Source: a virus
DNA: 44,995 bases
Direction: 5' to 3' (one strand)
IMG/VR virus record: IMGVR_UViG_3300031623_000010
Coordinates: 1 to 44,995 of that record
The notes beneath the pieces were generated by a model. That model searched no databases and was not told the origin of the DNA. It was given only the letters and a program-made list of their open reading frames with translations. Positions within the stretch are counted from its first letter, which is position 1. The number at the start of each line of letters is the position of its first letter. Shown piece by piece: positions 194 through 44,995 of the stretch. A program made the position numbers and the translations under genes.

Positions 194-221
194 TTTACCC
201 TACTTCCGGTGATAGTATAGT
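194..221 (+). promoter_or_regulatory. Possible promoter for the rightward late genes
   Basis: A TTTACC hexamer at 194-199 and a TATAGT hexamer at 216-221 are separated by 16 bases, resembling a weak sigma-70 promoter upstream of the first plus-strand gene. The surrounding stretch (140-225) is much more AT-rich than the rest of the window. The phage carries its own sigma-like proteins, so late promoters may not match the host consensus. This is a weak call based on spacing and position only. Confidence 0.3.
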
Positions 222-24906: not shown

Positions 24907-25782
24907 TTGCATGCGACAACAGAGGAACTTAAGTCCGAGCTGGCTGACACGAAGATACTTGACACGGATGGCTTCTACGAGGTCATTGGTCAGCGCCCTG
25001 ATCTGTATCTCCCGCGTGCTGACCTGATCGAACGACTAGAGACGAAACGTCTCGTCGTCGATGACGGTCGCGTCAAGGTCAGGAACAACTACCGCGCCCT
25101 TGGTGTGTGGAAGGGAGCGCAGATCAACGTTGAAGGCCCGTACGGGTCGAACCTGCTTGATCTGACATGGCAGCTCGTATCAATGTGCAAGCAGGAGAAC
25201 CATGCCCCCGAGATTGGGGTTGGTTTCTGGAAGAAGCTGGAGTCCCTTGAGACACCCATCCCACTGAAGTCAACGTGGGCGAAGCCTCCCGCCCCCGCCC
25301 GGGGGTACGTCGGTTACGTGTCGCGGGCCAAGTGGGGCGCTCGTTATCCGAAGAGCGCGAACTCGACTAACGTCCGTAACGGGTATGTTAAGGCCCATTG
25401 GACTGTGACGTGTCAGCCTGGTGATCACTCGAAGTGTAATAAGCATATCCAAGGAATCCAAAATTACCATATGGATAGCTACGGTTGGAATGACATCGCA
25501 TATTCCGAATTAATTTGTTCCCACGGATATGTGTATTGTGGCCGCGGCCCGGGTGCGCGCAGCGCTGCGAACGGTGACGGCCAATTGAATTACGAGCACG
25601 AGGCGATCAGCCTGATTGGTGGCCCTGACTGTGGCCCAACTACAGCGCAGAAGCATGCGTTGTATGCGCGGATGGATGAGCGGGCTTGCGTCGAACTTCT
25701 CGGCCATCGGGATGGCTACTCCACTTCGTGCCCAGGTGACGAAATCCAAAAATGGGTACGAGCGTACCATCCCATTAAATAG
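24907..25782 (+). CDS. Endolysin, N-acetylmuramoyl-L-alanine amidase (291 aa)
   Basis: The start is TTG 24907, well placed after AGAAAGGACCCC. The N-terminal part (to about 100) has no clear family and may be a wall-binding or regulatory domain, followed by a linker (KSTWAKPPAPARGYVGY). The C-terminal amidase-2/PGRP-type domain starts SRAKWGARYP and shows KAHWTVT with a zinc-ligand His, IQNYHMDSYGWNDIAYSELI and the LLGHRDGYSTSCPGDEIQKW signature carrying the second His and Cys ligands. The catalytic domain comes last, the reverse of many endolysins. It is the last plus-strand gene, before a bidirectional terminator. Confidence 0.9.
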   Translation: MHATTEELKSELADTKILDTDGFYEVIGQRPDLYLPRADLIERLETKRLVVDDGRVKVRNNYRALGVWKGAQINVEGPYGSNLLDLTWQLVSMCKQENHAPEIGVGFWKKLESLETPIPLKSTWAKPPAPARGYVGYVSRAKWGARYPKSANSTNVRNGYVKAHWTVTCQPGDHSKCNKHIQGIQNYHMDSYGWNDIAYSELICSHGYVYCGRGPGARSAANGDGQLNYEHEAISLIGGPDCGPTTAQKHALYARMDERACVELLGHRDGYSTSCPGDEIQKWVRAYHPIK

Positions 25783-25795
25783 AACGACGAAAATC

Positions 25796-25824
25796 GGCCC
25801 CACCCTCAACATGAGGGTGGGGCC
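25796..25824. terminator. Bidirectional terminator between converging operons
   Basis: A perfect 12-bp stem, GGCCCCACCCTC (25796-25807) with GAGGGTGGGGCC (25813-25824), has a five-base loop. It is flanked by AAAAT on one side and ATTTATTT on the other, so it can act in both directions. It lies between the endolysin stop (25782) and the end of the minus-strand operon (25835). Confidence 0.85.
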
Positions 25825-25834
25825 ATTTATTTCG

Positions 25835-26125
25835 TTACGGCGCGTACAACGCCCAGGTTGCCTGCTCACGCTGCCCGTTGCAGATGATGCTAGCGAGGGG
25901 AAAGTCCTCCCCCGGCCGGGCTATAAAGTAGCACGTCCAGCGTTGCTCCACGATCCTGACGCACGTGACCGTGGCGTCATGAAGCTGCTTGGATCGCTTA
26001 GACCACTTAAGATCCCACGTGTCTGGTGTGACGTTCATCGCATTCAGCTCGAAGACGAACAGCCTGAGCTGTTCGACCGGCGAGTTGAACATAACGTCGA
26101 TCGTGTCGCCCTTACCCCGCGCCAC
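25835..26125 (-). CDS. Hypothetical protein (96 aa)
   Basis: Last gene of the leftward operon. The preferred start is GTG 26125, overlapping the upstream zinc-protein gene by 14 bases. Longer starts would run deep into that gene. The protein is compact with alternating strands and helices (GDTIDVMFNSPVEQLRLFVF; QLHDATVTCVRIVEQRW) and an acidic C-terminal half. No motif recognised. Its position after ribonucleotide reductase does not define a role, since it may simply be carried at the operon end. Confidence 0.55.
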   Translation of the reverse strand: MARGKGDTIDVMFNSPVEQLRLFVFELNAMNVTPDTWDLKWSKRSKQLHDATVTCVRIVEQRWTCYFIARPGEDFPLASIICNGQREQATWALYAP

Positions 26126-34231: not shown

Positions 34232-35164
34232 TTAATCTAGATCACCCTCATCTCTTTCTTCGGGGGCACAAGCCACAAGGTCATATAGGACGGCCATTCG
34301 TACGACGAGTCCGTTCCGGACCTGACGTTGGATGAGCGGCTCGGCTGCGTCAGCGACGTCGGACGCGATCTCCACGCCCCGGTTCATTGGGCCAGGGTGC
34401 ATGACGCGCTGCCCCTCGGTCAGGCGCCCGGCACTTACACCCCACCGGGCGGTGTACTCCCGCAACGACGGTACGAAGTTTGCGCCGGCTTCCATGCGCT
34501 CGCGTTGCATTCGGAGCACGTAGACGACATCAGCGCCGCGGATCGCAGCGATGTCGTTCGACACCTCGCACCCTAGCGCTTCGATGCCCCGGGGGATTAG
34601 CGGCGGCGGTCCTACGAGTGTCACGCGTGCGCCCATCAGCACGAGTGCTTGAATGTTTGAGCGCGCGACGCGCGAGTGCAGTACGTCACCGACAATCGCG
34701 ACATGGATTCCATCGACCCTACCGAACTCCTCGTCGATCGTGAAGAGGTCGAGCAGTGCCTGGGTCGGATGCTGGCGCTTACCGTCCCCCGCGTTAACGA
34801 CGTGCGCGTTGACATGGCGGGCAACGACGTCGGGTGCGCCGATGCTCGGGTGGCGGATCACAACGATGTCGGGGTCGTATGCGCCGAGGGTCAGCGCCGT
34901 GTCTTTGAGGGACTCGCCCTTGGCGGCGGATGACCCCGATGCCCGTATGGACATGACGTCCGCGGACAGTCTCTTCGCGGCCAGCTCGAAGCTCGTAGAC
35001 GTTCGGGTCGAGGGTTCGTGGAACATGCTGACGACCGTACGTCCCCGCAGGGTTGGCAGCTTCTTCACGTCGCGGTCGAGGGATGCCTTGAAGGTGCGCG
35101 CGAGACCGAGGAGGCGCTCGATGTCGGGGCGCCCCAGATCGGAGATCGAGATCAGGTGTCTCAT
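34232..35164 (-). CDS. pyrB: Aspartate carbamoyltransferase inserted in the polymerase gene (310 aa)
   Basis: Condenses carbamoyl phosphate with aspartate, the first committed step of pyrimidine synthesis. The full-length catalytic chain has all key residues: STRT (52-55), SAAKGES (Lys82), IRHPSIGAP (Arg104, His105), GDGKRQHPTQ (His132, Gln135), GDVLHSRVARSN (Arg165), LRMQRERM (Arg218, Gln220) and HPGPMNRGVEI (256-266). KKLPTLRGRTVV and the HPGPM box look actinobacterial. There is no regulatory-chain gene, so it is probably a simple, feedback-free trimer. The start overlaps the polymerase N-terminal stop (TGATG), with GAGAGG upstream. It is a complete enzyme, not a homing endonuclease or intein. 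Confidence 0.93.
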   Translation of the reverse strand: MRHLISISDLGRPDIERLLGLARTFKASLDRDVKKLPTLRGRTVVSMFHEPSTRTSTSFELAAKRLSADVMSIRASGSSAAKGESLKDTALTLGAYDPDIVVIRHPSIGAPDVVARHVNAHVVNAGDGKRQHPTQALLDLFTIDEEFGRVDGIHVAIVGDVLHSRVARSNIQALVLMGARVTLVGPPPLIPRGIEALGCEVSNDIAAIRGADVVYVLRMQRERMEAGANFVPSLREYTARWGVSAGRLTEGQRVMHPGPMNRGVEIASDVADAAEPLIQRQVRNGLVVRMAVLYDLVACAPEERDEGDLD

Positions 35165-42912: not shown

Positions 42913-43686
42913 CTACGCTAGGTTCGCGTCGTCGAGGGTGAAATCAGCCTCGACGCCGTTGCGCGATCCGTCTGCGCGCACCCAATGCGTGCGAATAACG
43001 AGCCAAACGATCGCCTGCATAACGCTTGGACTCTCGCCTCGACGGGCGGCCGCATCGGAATATGCCGATTGCATAATCGCCATTCTGCCCTTCGGGAGGC
43101 CATCGCGGCGCGGGTCATCGGCGCGCAGATTCGCGAGGCGCGACATCGCGATCGTCGAGGCTCGGATCGCCCAGACATCCATCGTTCGGCAGTCAGTGTC
43201 GCCCATGATCGCGCGGTAGAATTCGGCGACCTTAGGCCCGTGAATCGGACATCGGCCGCAATGCTTCCCATTGCATTTCACCTTCCGACCGGATCCGGTC
43301 ATAGACCGAACGTCTGTTCCGGTACAGGATCGGCTGTCGCGAGTGAGCAGAATTCTCCATGCCTTCTCGAAATTGGCATCATACCCCGCGCACCCGAGGG
43401 GTTTTACGTGCCTGATACCGGCGGAATACAGCGCGATTAGCAGGCTTCCCGCCTTCTTATTAGCTGTCCAGGACAGGTTCGGCGATAGTACCGCGAGCAC
43501 GCCCGCGGTTAGGCGCACGTCCAGACCGTGCTCAAACGCCAGCGCAGAGGCGAATTCTAGGGCTTCGATATACCAATTTCGACCGGCTGCTATCTGCGCG
43601 GGCGTGGCCGCGTCGTAGTAGGCGACAATTCTGTCGGACATTGCCTTGCGATTAGAATACGTGGGCGGGATAGATGGTCGCTGCAT
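42913..43686 (-). CDS. Putative HhH-GPD-like DNA-binding/glycosylase protein with Cys cluster (257 aa)
   Basis: ATG 43686 follows ACGAAAGGACGAAA; longer frames upstream cross the 14-bp hairpin and are rejected. The pattern LTAGVLAVLSPNLSWTANKK near residues 65-84 and GPKVAEFYRAIMGD, then MDVWAIRAS in the centre, resembles helix-hairpin-helix base-excision glycosylases (G-P-K-x-A followed by a late Asp-x-Trp). A cysteine stretch CNGKHCGRCPIHG before it could bind metal. It is the first leftward gene beside the origin-like region. The family assignment is inference; a phage-specific nuclease or modification protein is an alternative. Confidence 0.6.
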   Translation of the reverse strand: MQRPSIPPTYSNRKAMSDRIVAYYDAATPAQIAAGRNWYIEALEFASALAFEHGLDVRLTAGVLAVLSPNLSWTANKKAGSLLIALYSAGIRHVKPLGCAGYDANFEKAWRILLTRDSRSCTGTDVRSMTGSGRKVKCNGKHCGRCPIHGPKVAEFYRAIMGDTDCRTMDVWAIRASTIAMSRLANLRADDPRRDGLPKGRMAIMQSAYSDAAARRGESPSVMQAIVWLVIRTHWVRADGSRNGVEADFTLDDANLA

Positions 43687-43711
43687 TTTCGTCCTTTCGT
43701 CATGGAGCGGT

Positions 43712-43749
43712 TTAGACTTCGGCGTTCGCGAAGCTACGCCGAAGTCTAA
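43712..43749. promoter_or_regulatory. Perfect 14-bp stem upstream of the first leftward gene
   Basis: TTAGACTTCGGCGT (43712-43725) is exactly complementary to 43736-43749, with a 10-base loop. It ends 26 bases before the start codon of the 43686 gene. It could be an operator for a dimeric repressor, an attenuator or a leader hairpin in the mRNA. Confidence 0.6.
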
Positions 43750-44418
43750 CAGACGCCCCAAAACCCCCTGTGCGCCACGATCTCCGCGCGCAGTTCTGCG
43801 CGCCGAGACGCCGCTGCGCGCGCCCCTGTGCGTTGGTAAGCTGTCGCCGATCGGCCATCGCGTCGCGCGCGCACGAGGCCTTCGGCCGGCGAGCGCACGA
43901 GGCCTTCGGCCCGCACGCATAACGCGCGCGCATACGCGCATAGCAGATCGCTGAAACGCGCCAAAACCCCCCGCGCGCACATCGACACGCGCGCATAATG
44001 CGGGCGCATCGAGAGGCCATGTCGCCGATCCGACATCGCGGATCTGAGGCGCGCGCATAATGCGGGCGCGTCAGCGGCGCCATCGAGGCACCATCGGCGA
44101 CCTCGCGCGGGCGCGAAATCGGCCCTATAATCCCTAGTGCCAGTAGGGATATCGGGGTTTTCGCCTCTTGGGCTAAAACCCCCCTTGATGCCTAAAATCG
44201 GCCCCACCACCCGCGCATTATGCGGGCGCCGTGGCATGGGCGCGCGATCGTGCCTTAGAGGACTCAAATCGGGGTTATAGACTGTCAGGCGAAAACCCTA
44301 AAACGGGCCTCATTCCGGCCCAATAATCCGGGCGCGAGCTTGTCCCCCGTTCGCCCCCCGCCATCGCGCGTATGTAAAGCACTCCCAGAGTTGGCGGTGC
44401 CTTTCGGTGCGCCAGTGC
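43750..44418. repeat. Gene-free region with direct repeats
   Basis: No real gene is seen in this 670-base stretch. It holds two copies of GCACGAGGCCTTCGGCC (43871-43887, 43895-43911), two perfect copies of GCGCGCATAATGCGGGCGC (43989-44007, 44051-44069), and a third nearly identical CGCGCATTATGCGGGCGC (44212-44229). GGGTTTTCGCCT also occurs in inverted orientation near 44155 and 44300. The content suggests protein-binding sites in a control or origin region. Confidence 0.65.
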
Positions 44419-44521
44419 GGGACACTTGGGGCAGATAGGGCATCTCTTCCGGATAACTATCTACGGTGTGTCCGTAGTCATAGTTTCCCTATAGTCCTGC
44501 CCCAGCTGCCTTAAGTGTCCC
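44419..44521. other. Nested inverted-repeat element, candidate origin or structured RNA
   Basis: Four pairs of complementary segments are nested in order: GGGACACTT (44419-44427) with AAGTGTCCC (44513-44521), GGGGCAG (44428-44434) with CTGCCCC (44497-44503), ATAGGG (44435-44440) with CCCTAT (44487-44492), and AACTATCTACGG (44455-44466) with CCGTAGTCATAGTT (44472-44485, bulged), closing on a TGTGT loop. Together they give a roughly 100-base branched or bulged hairpin with about 33 pairs. Its function is unknown. Its setting between repeats and palindromes suits an origin or packaging signal. Confidence 0.75.
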
Positions 44522-44583
44522 TCAGAACGCCCGGGGTCTCTCTCGCTGCTTTTGACGGGCTGGCGGAGCCAAGCCCCTCTATG

Positions 44584-44623
44584 ACGTACTAGTACGTTCC
44601 TAGTCCCCTTAAGGGGACTAGGA
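44584..44623. promoter_or_regulatory. Two adjacent perfect palindromes
   Basis: ACGTACTAGTACGT (44584-44597) is a perfect 14-base palindrome. It is immediately followed by a perfect 26-base palindrome (44598-44623; half-site TCCTAGTCCCCTT). Two back-to-back perfect palindromes in non-coding DNA are likely binding sites for dimeric proteins or extruding cruciforms. Confidence 0.75.
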
Positions 44624-44640
44624 CTAAGAGGGACTATGGG

Positions 44641-44667
44641 GGATTAGGATGCTTCGCATCCTAATCC
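44641..44667. other. 12-bp hairpin with triloop
   Basis: GGATTAGGATGC (44641-44652) pairs perfectly with 44656-44667 around a TTC triloop. It lies between the double palindrome and the terminator. It may be part of the same structured origin/control element or form an RNA hairpin. Confidence 0.65.
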
Positions 44668-44694
44668 ATGTTTAGTCATTGTTCCTCCCCCCCT

Positions 44695-44731
44695 ATAGTC
44701 CCCCCCTCCGCTCTGGGGGGGACTATTTTTT
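44695..44731 (+). terminator. Intrinsic terminator, rightward
   Basis: ATAGTCCCCCCC (44695-44706) pairs perfectly with GGGGGGGACTAT (44715-44726), with an eight-base loop and a T run after it (to 44731). A rightward terminator here implies that some rightward RNA is made upstream, between 43.7 and 44.6 kb, where no plus-strand gene exists. That RNA could include the nested inverted-repeat element. Confidence 0.8.
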
Positions 44732-44754
44732 GGGGGTGGTTCCTTCCCATTTGT

Positions 44755-44858
44755 TGACCTCCTTGGGGGGTCGTTGACCCCCTTGGGGGATGTGGTGACC
44801 TTCTTGGAAGGTTGTCATCACATGTCCCAAGGGGGTCATATTTGGCCCAAGGGGGTCA
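44755..44858. repeat. Iteron-like array TGACC(C/T)(C/T)CTTGG
   Basis: Five copies of a 12-base motif are seen: three forward (44755-44766 TGACCTCCTTGG, 44775-44786 TGACCCCCTTGG, 44796-44807 TGACCTTCTTGG) and two inverted (44827-44838 and 44847-44858, CCAAGGGGGTCA). Start-to-start spacing is 20, 21, 31 and 20 bases, so most sites lie on the same helix face. This is typical for an initiator or repressor binding array beside an origin. Confidence 0.75.
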
Positions 44859-44995
44859 TGCTGGGGGGGAGGGGTGTCAGGTCTCCCTTGGGGTCCCGCG
44901 CGTTATCCTCGCCGTTCCGGCAAAATGGGTCGTTTTGGTCCGAAATCCCTTACTGGGCGGACGTTTTGGGGGTTTTTGGGGCGGGTTTGGGGCGA
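44858..44995. repeat. Right copy of terminal direct repeat
   Basis: Repeats bases 1-138 with identity over the first 126 bases and mismatches at 44984 and 44994. The last iteron copy ends at its first base, so in the circular form the iteron array is directly followed by the AT-rich promoter region at 140-225 and the late genes. Confidence 0.9.

Follow-up and report, generated by a model that had tools for sequence, protein, structure and literature searches.

A hairpin array at the divergent arm junction of an uncultured phage genome as a candidate DNA-level control region

The terminal repeat of phage Jasmine has been published (PMC5513430). The Arthrobacter phages Jasmine, Brad, Casserole, and Adat have deposited terminal repeats of 1330–1558 bases, and their capsid proteins are 27–30% identical to the one encoded in the sequence studied here. 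In all four of these Jasminevirus genomes, whose deposited ends are of uncertain independence, the start of the terminal repeat falls within a hairpin of 52 bases (positions −30 to +21), 5 bases past its centre, and a second inverted repeat is located about 100–167 bases before the repeat start. The terminus hairpin of Jasmine is also terminator-like, and that role may be the real one. Phage Shocker, with a direct terminal repeat (DTR) of 484 bases, has no hairpin at its repeat start. T7 reportedly forms a hairpin when its concatemers are processed (cited in PMC4281155 and PMC9503643), and weak inverted repeats occur at −129 to −92 and −210 to −170 of its repeat.

Hairpins have other described uses in phages. 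In actinophages, start-associated repeats (the ESAS of cluster K and the 18-bp repeats of Microbacterium cluster EG) are found directly before the start codons of non-structural genes. The early promoters of N4 are extruded DNA hairpins read by the virion RNA polymerase.

The sequence studied, hereafter the window, is the whole IMG/VR virus record IMGVR_UViG_3300031623_000010, 44,995 bases long. The record is a circularly closed assembly, since its first 126 bases recur at its end (bases 1–126 equal 44858–44983), and three related circular contigs show an overlap of about the same length (127 bases). The rightward arm, from about 326 to 25.5 kb, encodes the terminase large subunit, portal, and capsid, while the leftward arm, starting at 43.7 kb and reaching about 26 kb, encodes DNA polymerase pieces, a helicase, a nuclease, and a ribonucleotide reductase. 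As the ends of the record join, the hairpin array described below is placed between the leftward replication genes and the rightward structural genes. The first leftward gene (42913–43686, minus strand) matches phrog_3842, and phage relatives are annotated as DNA glycosylase. A pyrB-like gene (34232–35164, minus strand), predicted to encode an aspartate carbamoyltransferase and about 38–43% identical to copies in other records, is located between the exonuclease-like and polymerase-like parts of the split DNA polymerase. Where both arms converge, a second structured spot (25691–25935) probably represents bidirectional terminators. The features of the divergent region are as follows:

43690–44857, continuing across the circular junction into 1–325, no strand: gene-free divergent region of ~1.5 kb (gene map and end overlap)
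43712–43749, minus strand: hairpin upstream of the first leftward gene, ~25 bases from its ATG (sequence)
44404–44535, no strand: hairpin H1 (RNA fold, DNA folds, and inverted-repeat analysis)
44598–44623, no strand: perfect 26-base palindrome TCCTAGTCCCCTTAAGGGGACTAGGA (inverted-repeat analysis)
44641–44667, no strand: perfect 12-bp hairpin with a TTC loop, giving a GCGAAGC apex on the minus strand (inverted-repeat analysis)
44695–44732, plus strand: 12-bp hairpin (44695–44726) followed by a T run, resembling a rightward terminator (inverted-repeat analysis)
44741–44871, no strand: second large hairpin, in which TGACC(Y)CCCTTGGG-like repeats recur as inverted copies (fold and inverted-repeat analysis)
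44969–44981, plus strand: 13-mer GGGGTTTTTGGGG, once per circular map, recurring at 112–124 through the end overlap
194–221, plus strand: candidate sigma-70-like promoter (TTTACC-16-TATAGT) reading rightward, located downstream of the array

A preliminary description of this DNA had noted nested complementary arms at 44419–44521. These are present, and the structure is wider, spanning 44404–44535 (H1). The outer stem comprises 16 bp (44419–44434 paired with 44506–44521) and is followed by small internal loops; the inner stem has 6 + 6 bp, a bulge of 2 bases, and a loop of 5 bases. RNA folding, which had been proposed as a check, gave a single hairpin for 44400–44540 at −69.1 kcal/mol against a shuffle mean of −43.7 (z = −6.42), and none of 200 shuffles folded as well, which agrees with the earlier claim that the arrangement is very unlikely by chance. 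Folded as single-stranded DNA, H1 has a z-score of about −6 on both strands. By raw energy alone, H1 ranks only about sixth on the plus strand of the window because GC-rich genes fold well too, and the exceptional part is the z-score; raw folding energy was rejected as evidence, given that GC-rich genes reach −100 kcal/mol. On the circular map, the sequence GTGTCCCTC has only two occurrences: one at 44514–44524 in the outer arm of H1, the other within 223–262, where it belongs to a second inverted pair (AGAGGGACA/TGTCCCTCT) that directly follows the rightward promoter candidate.

The early observation was incomplete, as H1 belongs to a group of five hairpins or palindromes that occupy 44404–44871, where folding is stronger than anywhere else in the 45-kb record. 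In a z-score scan of the whole window, the block at 44.4–44.9 kb ranks top because these five elements stand in a row. Four inverted repeats scoring at least 60 were observed in 44380–44880, compared with none in 100 shuffles, and 44741–44871 is the best plus-strand hairpin of the whole window (−89.6 kcal/mol). Within the latter, TGACC..CCTTGGG repeats (44753–44858) are present in forward and inverted copies and resemble putative initiator or repressor binding sites.

No DNA similar to the window was found in the phage records searched, and no relatives were found with a neighbouring gene as bait. A 16-mer scan of IMG/VR yielded 10 matches, which were discarded as chance or coding matches, none of them with H1. 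A terminase profile search of IMG/VR returned many relatives at about 45–51% identity, together with L015 and L016, nearly identical short contigs that end before the hairpin. A terminase 44% identical to that of the window was seen in a contig labelled as a Dehalococcoidia MAG (JADLBJ010000156.1, L153), possibly a misbinned phage. The window terL groups with isolates at only 22–26% identity and is not of the Jasmine type. Many of the relatives from the profile search, with terminases ~47–50% identical to that of the window, carry arrays of 3–8 inverted repeats in the divergent region, 0.4–2.5 kb upstream of terL, and these repeats, too, are far above shuffles. The array is recurrent and not universal, as relatives L102, L103, and L131 lack one. 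Large hairpins in L093, L110, and L132 were dropped as coding-like sequence. Contig ends of relatives cluster 1–2 kb upstream of terL, which was set aside as an indication of genome ends since assembly bias explains it as well as real ends do.

Among the relatives, the first hairpin of the array belongs to family A (model R1), which has an invariant loop; of its 20 pairs, 15 show double-sided changes in the array copies and 9 in short copies within the left arm. Family A hairpins are located 5–29 bases before a leftward start codon and in one orientation in all 26 cases checked, compared with 22% in the control. In the left arms of L091, L096, L134, L075, L115, and L121, covarying 48-base hairpins with a constant loop are found directly before the Shine-Dalgarno sequence of leftward genes. 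Family C (model R2) occurs once per array in a constant orientation, with double changes in 12 of the 18 consensus pairs, and R2 gave strong matches at 11 array loci; this model was built on a hand-made structure, and its outer stem scored lower owing to an alignment offset. Covariation in related phages had been suggested as a check, and the paired changes sought are thus found in the hairpins of relatives but not for H1, for which no homologue was found. R1 had no match in the whole window; its best score in the window region (13.8 bits, E = 0.01, at 44689–44736, in a search of 1.4 kb with no filters) is not significant, and the best E-value of R2 in that region was 1. Because neither model matches the window, its array is linked to those of its relatives by position and architecture rather than by demonstrated homology.

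When pairing is under selection in an RNA, G-U pairs normally persist on one of the two strands. Across 80 distinct hairpins from the relatives, G-U accounts for 1.1% of pairs on the plus strand and 1.6% on the minus strand, compared with 12.8% in tRNAs of the same loci. This scarcity on both strands suggests that the inverted repeats are maintained as DNA, and such upkeep may occur through selection on both strands or through template-switch repair between the arms. The contrast is support and not proof, as picking hairpins by Watson-Crick pairing exaggerates the scarcity.

The window resembles the Jasminevirus genomes in its two-arm layout, in having inverted repeats in the matching intergenic region, and in GGGGTTTTTGGGG, of which Jasmine and Casserole each have a single copy, in both at position −79 relative to the DTR start, and which adjoins the array in the window. 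Model R1 matched the Jasmine hairpin weakly (E = 0.0056). The Jasminevirus genomes differ from the window in having two inverted repeats instead of five, in carrying an Lsr2-like gene inside the terminal repeat, and in belonging to another terminase lineage. With T7, the window shares a podophage-like gene set with an A-family DNA polymerase and, if its terminal repeat starts where presumed, nearby inverted repeats, whereas its hairpins are many and long and its terminal repeat is presumed, the record being a circular assembly. As in the cluster K and EG repeats, family A and the window hairpin at 43712–43749 are placed before start codons. The stem sequence of those actinophage repeats is conserved, however, whereas stems of the relatives differ through paired changes, and H1 itself is not associated with a start codon. 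The C-GNA-G-like apices and, probably, an action as DNA are reminiscent of N4 promoters, but the stems in the window are far longer and it is the non-template strand that carries the GAA loop. N4-type hairpin promoters were rejected as no RNA polymerase motif or family match of the N4/T7 type is present in the window; a window protein of 1555 aa has no Pfam or PDB match and no polymerase motif.

We tentatively read the array containing H1 as a region that acts in cis, at the DNA level, to control the formation of genome ends and/or replication; we hold this reading at slightly less than even confidence. The earlier interpretation of H1 is partly supported. Its DNA options, a packaging site or a replication origin, fit the low number of G-U pairs in the arrays of relatives and the Jasminevirus terminus inside a hairpin better than an RNA does. 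Replication would yield head-to-tail concatemers, and single-strandedness or negative supercoiling of the region may allow the arms to fold into hairpins. The terminase or the replication machinery might then nick or stop at one hairpin, which would become the start of a direct terminal repeat. Genome ends would thus be made by T7-like concatemer processing and packaging, and/or replication would start at the arm junction. The genome-terminus role in the window phage is extrapolated from distant cultured relatives, and its terminal repeat, any part that the hairpins play in cutting or replication, and the identity of the hairpin marking the end are likewise inferred.

The main rival is a structured leader RNA, in which a leftward transcript starting to the right of the array would carry the hairpins as elements for mRNA processing, stability, or translation, comparable to RNase III sites or start-associated hairpins. 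It is the best fit to the start-associated hairpins, namely family A with its fixed placement, including the first array hairpin, and the window hairpin at 43712–43749, which precedes the first leftward gene by about 25 bases and is placed like those of the relatives; start-associated inverted repeats are also known in actinophages. However, about 720 bases separate H1, which is in the non-start part of the array, from the first leftward gene, stems in the relatives are strand-symmetric and almost free of G-U pairs, and a sigma-70-type search found no leftward promoter candidate, so that we regard a leader as unlikely, if worth serious consideration. An independent plus-strand non-coding RNA, which had also been proposed, fares far worse and is very improbable. 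The rightward terminator-like hairpin on which the proposal drew is real (44695–44726 with its T run), has no preceding rightward gene, and the RNA fold is good. Such an RNA gene would nevertheless have no start signal, because no sigma-70-type promoter-like site is present in 43600–44995 in either direction. At gathering cut-off, Rfam 15 gave no match in the window, and the loci of relatives matched tRNAs only. A similar orphan rightward terminator-like hairpin is found at the Jasminevirus genome end.

An origin or operator that acts independently of genome ends, with the palindromes and TGACC..CCTTGGG repeats bound by a phage initiator or repressor, would account for the forward and inverted repeats at 44753–44858 and for a gene-free divergent site at which GC skew changes sign on the circular map. 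Skew had been put forward as a check for an origin, and the sign change is indeed located there, but it follows gene orientation and is thus no independent evidence. Since no initiator gene was identified and the repeated sites are clear only in the last hairpin and not in H1, we consider this explanation improbable.

In direct-terminal-repeat phages, how the ends are duplicated and cut is still debated, even for T7. Should the control-region reading extend to widespread uncultured podophages, an array of DNA hairpins would control their genome ends and their replication, and the terminase would cut at a hairpin apex; we regard this generalization as doubtful at present. In this view, paired changes would keep the hairpins perfect, with no wobble intermediates, and a cut at the apex is suggested by analogy to the Jasminevirus ends. 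The large covarying hairpins at the arm junction of this phage group, together with the ends of Jasmine, Adat, Brad, and Casserole, make a hairpin-guided cut directly testable, and the near-absence of G-U pairs may provide a way to distinguish DNA from RNA hairpins in other phages.
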